The position numbers and the translations under genes are program-made. The notes below the pieces were generated by a model. That model had not been told where the DNA came from and ran no database searches. It worked only from the letters and a program-made list of their open reading frames with translations. Positions 44,326 through 46,736 of a DNA stretch of 64,000 nucleotides are shown here, one piece after another. Source of the stretch: Acinetobacter equi (GTDB taxonomy: Bacteria; Pseudomonadota; Gammaproteobacteria; Pseudomonadales; Moraxellaceae); the NCBI RefSeq assembly GCF_001307195.1, contig NZ_CP012808.1, forward strand, positions 2,418,001-2,482,000. The letters run 5' to 3'. Positions within the stretch are counted from its first letter, which is position 1. Each line of letters starts with the position of its first letter.

Positions 44326-45381
44326 TTAAGCTGTAAGCTTTAATTCTTGATTCACTAGCGTTTGATACACATCTAAAAATAATTGCTCCGTTTTTTCCCA
44401 ACCTAAACAACCATCTGTTACAGATTGACCATACATCATTTCCGCTGCAATTTTTTGATTACCATCCACTAAAAAACTTTCCAACATTACGCCACGTACA
44501 TGAGTGAATGGTCTCTCATGGATAATCGTATGTAATACTTCAGGTTGTAATAGTGGATTTTTAAAACTATTTCCATGACTACAATCAATAATTAAAGCAG
44601 GAAGTTCAGTTTTAGCTTTTTCTCGAATCTTATTGATATCAGCCAAAGTATAATTAGGACCTGAATTTGAACCACGTAAAATTAAATGTGCATTCGGATT
44701 TCCTTCAGATTCAATTAAGGCAGGTAATCCTGATTGACTTAAACCCATAAATTGATGTGGTCTAGAAGCTGAAGAAATTGCATCTAATGCAATTTGGATT
44801 GAACCATCTGTCCCATTTTTAAAACCAATGCTATATGGCATATGACTTGAAATTTCACGATGAATCTGAGACTCGCTCGTACGAGCACCAATTGCCCCCC
44901 AAGCCAATAAATCATCGAAATATGCAGTTGCCATTGGACTTAAAATTTCAGATGCAATTGGCAAGCCCATTTCTATAATCTTAAAATATAAGTCACGTGA
45001 CTGTTCTAAACCTTTTTGCATATCTGATGATCCATCTAAATGAGGATCATATAAAAAACCTTTCCAACCCACTGTCGTACGTGGTTTTTCAATATATGCT
45101 CGCATTACAAAAAAGATTTTATCTGAAACTTTTTGCTGTAATTCTAATAATTTTTCAGCATATTCTAATGTTGCTATTGGATCATGTACTGAACATGGCC
45201 CGGTAATAATCATTAAACGCTTATCTTGACCATTTAAAATATGTTCAATCGTTTGTCGTTGATTTTTTATTTGTTCTGCTAAATATACTGGTAACTGAAT
45301 TTGCTGTTTCAATTGAAAAGGCAAACTCAAAATAAATTCTTTAACTGTCGATTTTTCTAATGTATTTACTGTAGCATTCAT
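44326..45381 (-). CDS. aroG: 3-deoxy-7-phosphoheptulonate synthase, AroF/G/H type
   Basis: This class I alpha DAHP synthase makes the first compound of the shikimate pathway from phosphoenolpyruvate and erythrose-4-phosphate. Its motifs are ITGPCSVHDP, RAYIEKPRTTVGWKG, LSPMATAYFDD, GARTSESQ, GFKNGTDGS and IIDCSHGNSFKNP. At 351 residues it has the usual E. coli-type length. The start follows AAGGAAATACCA. The preceding ~340 nt form a leader with a putative aromatic attenuator and a second aromatic-rich ORF (see separate entries), so expression probably responds to aromatic aminoacyl-tRNA. Confidence 0.96.
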   Translation of the reverse strand: MNATVNTLEKSTVKEFILSLPFQLKQQIQLPVYLAEQIKNQRQTIEHILNGQDKRLMIITGPCSVHDPIATLEYAEKLLELQQKVSDKIFFVMRAYIEKPRTTVGWKGFLYDPHLDGSSDMQKGLEQSRDLYFKIIEMGLPIASEILSPMATAYFDDLLAWGAIGARTSESQIHREISSHMPYSIGFKNGTDGSIQIALDAISSASRPHQFMGLSQSGLPALIESEGNPNAHLILRGSNSGPNYTLADINKIREKAKTELPALIIDCSHGNSFKNPLLQPEVLHTIIHERPFTHVRGVMLESFLVDGNQKIAAEMMYGQSVTDGCLGWEKTEQLFLDVYQTLVNQELKLTA

Positions 45382-45394
45382 TGGTATTTCCTTA

Positions 45395-45415
45395 GGATTG
45401 CAATCTTCGCAATCC
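45395..45415 (-). promoter_or_regulatory. Hairpin just before the aroG ribosome site
   Basis: On the minus strand GGATTGC and GCAATCC form a 7-bp stem between the second leader ORF and the AAGGAA ribosome site of aroG. There is no T tract, so it is not a simple terminator. It might act on translation or shield the leader. Confidence 0.45.
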
Positions 45416-45421
45416 GATCTT

Positions 45422-45520
45422 TTATTTGAGCAAATTGGGTCTATGGGCTTGTAACATCATGTGGTTATAAAAGTTGAACCAATAAAAGTTGCTAAAGTAT
45501 GTAAAGTTATAAGTTTTCAT
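45422..45520 (-). CDS. Aromatic-rich 32-residue leader ORF
   Basis: The start at 45520 has an excellent GAGGA 6 nt upstream. The 32-residue frame begins MKTYNFTYFSNFYWFNFYNH: eleven of residues 4-18 are Phe, Tyr or Trp except for a few Asn, Thr and Ser. The C-terminal part is HMMLQAHRPNLLK. It lies 41 nt before the aroG start and after the attenuator terminator, so it is translated only on read-through transcripts. Composition suggests a leader peptide whose translation depends on Phe and Tyr supply. No known family was recognised. Confidence 0.6.
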   Translation of the reverse strand: MKTYNFTYFSNFYWFNFYNHMMLQAHRPNLLK

Positions 45521-45559
45521 TTGTATTCCTCAAAATATTAATATCTAAACGCTAAATGT

Positions 45560-45639
45560 AAAAAAACCTGACCGGGTTGCCGATCAGGTTTTTTATCTCT
45601 GGTGGGCAACCTTTTTGCCCAAACGCACTCGGGCAATTA
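45560..45639 (-). promoter_or_regulatory. Aromatic amino-acid attenuator of aroG
   Basis: On the minus strand, after the leader stop codon, come four segments: 1 TTGCCC (45636-45631), 2 TGGGCAA (45621-45615), 3 GGTTGCCC (45611-45604) and 4 CGGCAACCCG (45582-45573). Segments 1:2, 2:3 and 3:4 can each pair. Segment 4 is also the core of a terminator, stem CCTGATCGG / CCGGTCAGG (45588-45567) followed by seven T. A ribosome at the stop codon would cover segment 1, allow 2:3 and so termination. Stalling at the upstream Tyr/Phe/Trp codons would allow 1:2 and then 3:4, which breaks the terminator. Confidence 0.75.
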
Positions 45640-45693
45640 CATAAACTGCCAAAAATAAAAATAAGCGCATAAGTGAACAGGTTGCTTTAACAT
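45637..45693 (-). CDS. Leader peptide of the aroG attenuator (18 aa)
   Basis: The minus-strand frame from the ATG at 45693 to the TAA at 45637 encodes MLKQPVHLCAYFYFWQFM. The run Tyr-Phe-Tyr-Phe-Trp just before the stop is the classic sensor of an attenuation leader. The first pairing segment of the attenuator begins right after the stop. The ribosome site is weak (AGAACACTAAA), which is the main reservation. Confidence 0.65.
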   Translation of the reverse strand: MLKQPVHLCAYFYFWQFM

Positions 45694-45726
45694 TTTAGTG
45701 TTCTAAAAAATTCAGTGTTAGGAATA

Positions 45727-45755
45727 AAATACGCACTATTTTCTTCTTTGACAAG
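45727..45755 (-). promoter_or_regulatory. Likely promoter of the aroG leader
   Basis: On the minus strand TTGTCA (45755-45750) is separated by 17 nt from TATTTT (45732-45727). Transcription would start near 45720, about 27 nt before the leader peptide ATG. Confidence 0.55.
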
Positions 45756-45853: not shown

Positions 45854-45890
45854 AATAAAAAAGAGTACACAATGTACTCTTTTTTATTTT
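45854..45890. terminator. Terminator downstream of the 45.9-46.6 kb gene
   Basis: AAATAAAAAAGAGTACA and TGTACTCTTTTTTATTT form a perfect long stem with a three-base loop, 21 nt after the stop of the minus-strand gene ending at 45911. Confidence 0.9.
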
Positions 45891-45910: not shown

Positions 45911-46621
45911 TTATTCAAAACCATTCACTTTTAAACGTTCACGAGTCGATTCAATATTCTCTTTTAATTCATCGACCAATACTTGTGGTACTTTTGAGTT
46001 TGTTAAATAGTTAAAAATATCTATCCCCATTTCATAAGCTTGTACAGTGACTGCATACTCACCATTTGCTTTCGCTGCTGACAATTTTATATCTTGAGGA
46101 AAATCAGGGAAAAATTCAGTGAAATCTTCCGGTTTTTCTGTACCTAAATAAGTAAATACTCGCCACTCATTATTATCTAAATTACGAACAAAAATAAGGT
46201 CTGTTTGGCTTTCATATTTTTTACCGAAAATAGTATCTTTTGATATCCAAGGAACAATACACACTTCACCTAAAGGCAAAACAAAATTTGCTTTAGGATT
46301 TTGCAATTCTAAACCCTCATTTTTATATTGCTCACTTTTTGTTAAGCTTTGTTGGAATTGAATTGCCAGCTGATATTCCTGATCATTCATCCAGTCACCA
46401 GTGTAGTAAGTACTTTCAGGATGCTTATCTTTAAATAATCGGCTATATTCATTTTTTTCTAAAAATTGATGTAATTGTTCAGCATTACCTGTTTTAGAAA
46501 TAGAATTTAATTCTGTTACATACTGATTAAACTGAGAATAGCTTTTTTCACATTGCAAATCTTCTGCTTGTGACACACCATGAATTGAAAGACCAACTAA
46601 AAGAGCAATTAATTTTTTCAT
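45911..46621 (-). CDS. Periplasmic protein of unknown function
   Basis: The frame is open upstream, but the ATG at 46621 gives a good signal peptide (MKKLIALLVGLSIHGVSQA) and a 236-residue precursor. The mature protein has two cysteines far apart (LQCEKSY and GEVCIVPW), which could form a disulfide, and is otherwise an acidic soluble protein with aromatic-rich stretches (YYTGDWMNDQEYQLAIQF). I do not recognise the family. Monocistronic, with a strong terminator. Confidence 0.65.
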   Translation of the reverse strand: MKKLIALLVGLSIHGVSQAEDLQCEKSYSQFNQYVTELNSISKTGNAEQLHQFLEKNEYSRLFKDKHPESTYYTGDWMNDQEYQLAIQFQQSLTKSEQYKNEGLELQNPKANFVLPLGEVCIVPWISKDTIFGKKYESQTDLIFVRNLDNNEWRVFTYLGTEKPEDFTEFFPDFPQDIKLSAAKANGEYAVTVQAYEMGIDIFNYLTNSKVPQVLVDELKENIESTRERLKVNGFE

Positions 46622-46736
46622 TATATTAAACCACGTATTAAATCCCATAAGAAAGATACAGCATTCTTCTGTTTTAGCAAATATTTCAACTGATCCTAAA
46701 CAGCTTCATCTAAAACATCAAAGATATTTTAGAAAC

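Follow-up and report, generated by a model that had tools for sequence, protein, structure and literature searches.

A probable two-leader control region ahead of a DAHP synthase gene in Acinetobacter and its relation to the Pseudomonas RNA P15

Organization of the DAHP synthase locus

The window analyzed here (the whole stretch of 64,000 nucleotides from Acinetobacter equi, positions 2,418,001 to 2,482,000 of contig NZ_CP012808.1) carries a DAHP synthase gene of the aroF/G/H type on the minus strand (44326-45381; 351 amino acids), which was assigned to the type I DAHP synthases by NF009395 (458.6 bits; cut-off 343), TIGR00034, and PF00793. The features ahead of it lie on the same strand in the order promoter, leader 1, segments 1-4, terminator, leader 2, hairpin, AAGGA, and gene. 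A consensus scan placed the putative promoter of leader 1 at 45726-45754 (TTGTCA at 45754-45749 and TATTTT at 45731-45726, separated by 17 nt), from which transcription would start at about 45719. A promoter-like pair was also found 29-38 nt ahead of the leader 1 ATG in 32 of the 33 Acinetobacter representatives scanned, the exception being L106. Between this promoter and the next upstream gene (45911-46648, minus strand), an inverted repeat (AAAAAGAGTACA..TGTACTCTTTT) occupies 45859-45888 and is probably the terminator of that gene.

Leader 1 (45637-45693; MLKQPVHLCAYFYFWQFM followed by a stop codon) comprises 18 codons, as had been claimed in an initial interpretation made from the letters alone (hereafter, the sequence-only reading). 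The Tyr-Phe-Tyr-Phe-Trp run (YFYFW), which that reading put at the end of the peptide, occupies codons 11-15 instead and is followed by Gln-Phe-Met (QFM). A 25-amino-acid ORF in another frame of the same stretch (MRLFLFLAVYVIARVRLGKKVAHQR) was rejected as the leader; conservation across species lies with the frame MLKQP..YFW...

Segment 1 (45629-45636; TTGCCCGA) adjoins the leader 1 stop codon and pairs with segment 2 (45615-45622; TTGGGCAA), which can pair with segment 1 or 3. Segment 3 (45604-45611; GGTTGCCC) can in turn pair with segment 2 or with segment 4 (45575-45581; GGCAACC), and 3:4 constitutes a 7-bp antiterminator. Segment 4 lies within the predicted intrinsic terminator (45560-45594; CCTGATCGG-CAAC-CCGGTCAGG), which has an A/T-extended stem and ends in seven T at 45566-45560. 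All the parts that the sequence-only reading had named ahead of the DAHP synthase gene were present when the coordinates were re-read on the minus strand, and the observation was confirmed as real.

A second leader, absent from that reading, lies between the terminator and the gene. Leader 2 (45422-45520; MKTYNFTYFSNFYWFNFYNHMMLQAHRPNLLK followed by a stop codon) is preceded by a Shine-Dalgarno site (GAGG, 45528-45531) and contains a Phe-Tyr-Trp codon stretch (45478-45486; TTTATTGGT), a candidate start-blocking segment. Its stop codon is followed by a hairpin (45395-45415; GGATTGC..GCAATCC; z -4.0) and then by the ribosome-binding and start region of aroF (45377-45393), which consists of AAGGA (45393-45389) and ACCAATGAA (45385-45377).

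Conservation in Acinetobacter and relation to P15

The synthase was searched for in 149 Acinetobacter genomes and was matched in all 149, five of which had a single match only. In those five and in G032, the best E values (1e-81 to 1e-95) were of second-copy grade. These six genomes (G029, G030, G031, G032, G076, and G128), some of which are incomplete, thus had only paralogue-grade matches, and the leader-bearing synthase gene may have been lost in them. The DNA ahead of the gene was collected from 70 of these genomes, the present one included (the best 30 matches and 40 picked mostly from weaker ones), together with 66 named records that partly repeat those 70 genomes. After the duplicate of the window was dropped, 136 loci remained, with 105 distinct sequences over 200 nt and 98 over the attenuator.

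Leader 1 was present in all 136 loci, each time with at least one F, one Y, and one W codon, and its dN/dS of 0.235, calculated from distinct sequences of the same length, indicates purifying selection. A pattern search recovered segments 2 and 3 as well as the terminator in all 98 distinct attenuator sequences, and the GCC core of segment 1 was invariant in the 33 representatives. Conservation of the leader codons and pairing segments, the lack of which in related genomes the sequence-only reading had taken as grounds for rejection, was therefore found throughout. It is mainly this conservation that excludes a chance origin of the attenuator, and chance ORFs were ruled out because both leaders are conserved. 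A Shine-Dalgarno-like site ahead of leader 1 was found in none of the 136 loci, which counts against strong translation.

In ten genomes including the present one, a crude ORF screen detected no similar leader upstream of the second DAHP synthase copy. The other Moraxellaceae (105 genomes of 14 genera) usually had one synthase match, with two in G257 and none in G192, and the synthases listed from these genera were 44-47% identical, like the second copy of Acinetobacter itself. Accordingly, the gene with its attenuator is, within the Moraxellaceae, a feature of Acinetobacter.

An Rfam search of the window at gathering scores gave no match. At a loose threshold, 45663-45565 matched RF00627, "Pseudomonas sRNA P15" (32 bits, E 7.5e-5); since this is below the gathering score of 70, the element was filed as a divergent relative of P15 and not as a member. 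Under strict filters, P15 was matched in 18 of 195 genomes of the order (the present one included), 89 of 119 Pseudomonadaceae genomes, and 6 of 281 genomes of the class, and loci were drawn only from the best matches. A total of 46 other matches were examined (17 from the order, 26 new ones from the Pseudomonadaceae, and 3 from the class), among which there was no named P. aeruginosa genome. As a result, 45 of the 46 were found to encode an aromatic leader with a DAHP synthase gene downstream on the same strand, the single exception being L193 (28.4 bits). The leader peptides read ..YYFGYWFSHRRA and similar, some with a non-ATG start. As a separate observation, the word TTTAGC occurs as TGGTTTAGC in leader 1 of 40 of 43 P15 loci.

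P15 shares homologous position and anatomy with the Acinetobacter element (aromatic leader, same segments, DAHP synthase downstream) and could be aligned with the 33 Acinetobacter representatives from the aromatic codons to the terminator, whereas the segment sequences and the leader peptide differ. A 40-protein tree placed the Acinetobacter gene with the P15-linked synthases and apart from the second copy of the Moraxellaceae; its deep forks are weak, and it contains long branches. P15 is catalogued as an sRNA gene and not as an attenuator (its Rfam type is "Gene"), and it is named among sRNAs in the available excerpt of PMC2375449. Given the aromatic leader and DAHP synthase in 45 of 46 cases, P15 most likely represents the terminated leader RNA of this attenuator.

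Folding and covariation of the probable attenuator

The 173-nt leader was predicted to fold at -53.9 (shuffle mean -34.8, sd 3.7; z -5.1; 0 of 200 shuffles), and the portion that stays exposed when a ribosome sits at the leader 1 stop codon folded as 2:3 plus the terminator (z -4.9). Covariation was scored in an alignment of the 33 Acinetobacter representatives and 17 P15 loci that runs from the aromatic codons through the terminator (A2). For 2:3, 90.7% of the cells were paired and 19 were double-changed (shuffled mean 7.0; 0 of 500 shuffles); for the terminator, the values were 98.5% and 39 (shuffled mean 11.9; 0 of 500 shuffles). For 3:4, 91.8% of the cells were paired and 10 were double-changed (shuffled mean 1.5), values attained on either measure in 0 of 500 shuffles, and its slid controls reached at most 58.7% paired cells and 4 double changes. 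The values of 2:3, 3:4, and the terminator each exceeded all slid controls. The number of 2:3 pairs with a double change (2), the pair types of 2:3, and those of the terminator were no higher than in the shuffles, and one of the seven 3:4 pairs was mismatched in 12 sequences, P15 loci often having C-A there. Pairing 1:2 is not column-homologous in P15 and is mostly invariant in Acinetobacter, so that covariation offers no test of it. The pairings 1:2, 2:3, and 3:4 and the terminator with seven T, as described in the sequence-only reading, were all found, and covariation between Acinetobacter and P15 was seen for 2:3 and 3:4 as well as for the terminator.

Folding with a ribosome mask was modeled for the 98 distinct sequences. 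Before segment 4 was made, a ribosome at the stop codon favored 2:3 against 1:2 in all 98 sequences; a ribosome stalled upstream reversed this preference in only 75 of them. With segment 4 made and the 3' arm of the terminator not yet made, 3:4 (at least 3 bp) formed in 96 of 98 sequences in the stalled state and also in 72 of 98 at the stop codon; it was weaker in the latter state, and the stalled value was the higher one in 92 sequences. In the complete leader at equilibrium, the terminator was predicted in every ribosome state without discrimination, and the switch must therefore be kinetic. A kinetic choice is accepted for the trp and his attenuators.

The sequence-only reading had proposed that a ribosome at the stop codon leads to 2:3 and termination, and an upstream stall to 1:2 and 3:4; the masked folds calculated without segment 4 agree with this. 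It was also right that the logic departs from the textbook trp layout. The E. coli trp and pheA attenuators likewise have an amino-acid-rich leader, competing hairpins, and an intrinsic terminator, but the segment covered at the stop codon plays the opposite part, and one amino acid is sensed as against three here. The layout matches that of the his-type attenuators of enterobacteria, in which the ribosome position selects either B:C and D:E (antitermination) or C:D and E:F (termination); the logic is the same, whereas the codons and the sequence are different. Conservation and covariation support the interpretation of the region as a ribosome-mediated transcription attenuator of the DAHP synthase gene.

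The second leader and the proposed two-stage control

Leader 2 was present in all 136 Acinetobacter loci (frameshifted in L123), with a Shine-Dalgarno-like site in 132. It contains 5-11 aromatic codons, F, Y, and W all being represented in 129 of 136 loci, and its dN/dS, computed as for leader 1, was 0.434. Of the 43 P15 loci, 39 likewise have a second aromatic leader between the terminator and the gene (39 of 46 overall); it was absent from L155, L159, L160, and L164, and no ATG-started one was found in L191-L193. The motif WRF occurs in 38 of the P15 leaders, always as TGG CGA TTT without synonymous change, and is followed by AGC in 34. The leader 2 stop codon precedes the gene by 8-44 nt in 130 of the Acinetobacter loci; for the 39 P15 loci, the distance ranges from -4 to 48 nt. 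In L161 and L109-L113, leader 2 extends onto or beyond the start of the gene.

Several variants of leader 2 were noted in addition. The TTTAGC word recurs as CGATTTAGC in 34 of the 39 P15 leaders (e.g., L149, L151, and L153), and in-frame TTTAG(C/T) is present in leader 2 of 117 of 136 Acinetobacter loci (45496-45491 in the window). In the divergent Acinetobacter group L109-L113, leader 2 lacks the spacer hairpin and passes the aroF start in another frame. L123 is a natural variant with a frameshift inside the aromatic codons, downstream of which the old tail and the hairpin are still recognizable. In a Pseudomonas clade (L147, L148, L165, L166, and L172), leader 2 extends to about 50 codons; its GC-rich second half is conserved (DRSP.GGK..NCRTPQ), and pairing of the Trp codon with the start does not account for its role.

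In the window, the Phe-Tyr-Trp stretch TTTATTGGT shares nine complementary bases with ACCAATGAA at the aroF start, and the predicted fold from leader 2 to the start uses this pairing; the whole leader 2 region in the window folds no better than shuffles (z -1.4). Of 17 further gene starts within the window, one pairs as well as that of aroF. Among the 99 distinct Acinetobacter sequences, pairing of the U of the AUG with leader 2 (p > 0.4) was predicted in 74, and the commonest partner of the AUG was the xYW stretch (32 in the tallied contexts). In 20 of 39 P15 loci, the leader 2 codon most paired with the start was the Trp codon, and the unlike P15 spacers CCGCCAGATC and TGCCAGTCAG are each complementary to the same codon stretch. 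Spacer shuffling gave p at or below 0.05 for 25 of the 90 Acinetobacter cases and for 14 of the 29 from P15 loci; the other 65 and 15, respectively, were not significant. These counts come from related sequences and are not independent. No signal of this kind was seen in a P15 clade (L147, L148, L165, L166, L172, L174, and others) or in many Acinetobacter loci.

The predicted unpaired fraction of the Acinetobacter AUG was 0.19 without a ribosome, 0.38-0.60 with a ribosome stalled on leader 2, and 0.66 with one at the leader 2 stop codon; Shine-Dalgarno accessibility showed no gain (0.53 to 0.45-0.51). In the P15 loci, the accessibility of the start region rose only from 0.48 to 0.56 with a ribosome on leader 2, and mean AUG accessibility was unchanged (0.51 and 0.49). 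The consensus hairpin ahead of the aroF Shine-Dalgarno site has five pairs, three of which were double-changed among 42 main-type sequences, and it is missing in some divergent Acinetobacter loci. RNAalifold predicted this hairpin alone, and no conserved alternative partner for it. Since the Tyr and Trp codons of leader 2 are often, though not always, complementary to the start region, translational control can only be inferred from them, and start blocking by leader 2 is put forward as the leading, yet unproven, mechanism, with translational coupling as its main rival.

Beyond the observed sequences, their conservation and covariation, and the association with DAHP synthase, we infer the stalling, the termination, and the sign of the second stage as follows. 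In the first stage, for which the indications are strong, the polymerase starting at about 45719 would make the 18-codon leader and the four segments. With the Tyr, Phe, and Trp tRNAs charged, the ribosome would reach the stop codon and cover segment 1, 2:3 would form, and the terminator would release an RNA of about 160 nt; the Pseudomonas sRNA P15 would be the terminated leader of the same element. With any of these tRNAs scarce, the ribosome would stall at YFYFW, 1:2 would form, and segment 3 would capture segment 4 as it emerges, so that the terminator would be pre-empted and transcription would read through. The second stage, which is less firmly indicated, would begin with the read-through RNA carrying the second aromatic leader just ahead of the gene. 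In many lineages its Tyr and Trp codons may pair with the gene start, and a ribosome held there would keep the start free, making this a translational step of the same sign as the first. We put the probability that the region is a two-leader control region of the DAHP synthase gene at about 0.8. A fuller version, in which an ancient two-stage attenuator is common to Acinetobacter, Pseudomonas, and further families within the order, both leaders read Phe, Tyr, and Trp, the leader 2 Tyr and Trp codons block the start until a stalled ribosome directly unblocks it, and P15 is a by-product of the first stage, is offered as tentative and on the doubtful side.

Translational coupling is a serious possibility, although we would not bet on it: ribosomes finishing leader 2 near the gene would start aroF, leader 2 would keep the read-through RNA translated, and start blocking would be unneeded. 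The position of the leader 2 stop codon close to, or in L161 and L109-L113 beyond, the gene start fits such coupling, as do the hairpin between this stop codon and the Shine-Dalgarno site, which is the sole conserved structure of the region in Acinetobacter, and the folding model, in which a ribosome at the stop codon frees the AUG best. Coupling alone, however, would let starvation stalls on leader 2 reduce aroF expression, opposite to the first stage, and it accounts neither for the 5-11 aromatic codons kept in leader 2 nor for the WRF codons of P15 without synonymous change.

The amino-acid signal might also be read mainly by leader 2, with the upstream terminator mostly constitutive or responding to another signal. 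The distribution of Shine-Dalgarno-like sites (132 of 136 loci for leader 2, none for leader 1) points in this direction, but leader 1 retains its aromatic codons and its frame (dN/dS 0.235) and the conserved arrangement of segments 1-4 is the one that an attenuator requires, which makes this arrangement improbable. Hardly any weight is given to a chiefly trans-acting sRNA (P15 in Pseudomonas) with an incidental leader peptide. The cataloguing of P15 as an sRNA (Rfam type "Gene"; excerpt of PMC2375449) and the precedent of leader products acting in trans, namely the trp leader peptide of S. meliloti as described in the excerpt of PMC7298713, speak for it; against it stand the 45 of 46 P15 matches that encode an aromatic leader ahead of a DAHP synthase gene, and the conserved alternative pairings 2:3 and 3:4, which a free sRNA would not need.

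Attenuation of a DAHP synthase gene is already known from C. glutamicum, where, according to the excerpts of PMC11802643 (citing Neshat 2014) and PMC4046766, a Phe-Tyr-Phe leader (aroR) precedes aroF and phenylalanine limitation causes read-through. That system likewise has an aromatic leader ahead of a DAHP synthase gene; by its description rather than its sequence, it differs in being actinobacterial, in its F-Y-F codons as opposed to Y-F-Y-F-W, and in the single leader mentioned in these excerpts. Attenuation is also suspected in Acholeplasma, where the excerpt of PMC8632094 presents the uORFC-13-1 motif ahead of the DAHP synthase gene aroF as a candidate uORF attenuator, which is confined to Acholeplasma and environmental sequences and has one uORF with a U run for at least one Phe codon. 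Dual control by a single leader is known from yxjB of B. subtilis, in which, as stated in the excerpt of PMC6851288, a stall on one leader prevents both termination and Shine-Dalgarno sequestration; there, the signal is an antibiotic and one leader peptide is involved, whereas two leaders in series with amino-acid codons are found here. A predicted motif before Shewanella aroF appears in the excerpt of PMC2659441. Aar of Acinetobacter was considered as the identity of the leader RNA, but its coordinates as given in PMC5320573 could not be mapped to aroF, and the available main texts of PMC12802169, PMC11472050, and PMC5320573 contain no mention of aroF, aroG, or any leader peptide.

In the open-licence literature, no description was found of P15 as an attenuator, of leaders preceding a DAHP synthase gene in either Acinetobacter or Pseudomonas, or of two leaders in series. 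Panina in 2001 and Vitreschak in 2004 reportedly surveyed attenuators in proteobacteria, and these surveys may contain part of the present findings. The suggestion of the sequence-only reading that the Acinetobacter arrangement may be undescribed is to be narrowed in view of the P15 relative in Rfam and of the attenuation known in C. glutamicum.

The input to the entire aromatic pathway is determined by DAHP synthase. Should the proposed control be true, one region would sense all three aromatic amino acids together, and two serial leader peptides on one gene would give a response at two thresholds or a multiplied one, which the natural variants make testable. A catalogued Pseudomonas sRNA would become a cis-acting attenuator, changing how P15 expression data are read, and the region would offer a clear point of intervention for engineering Pseudomonas and Acinetobacter hosts to produce aromatics.
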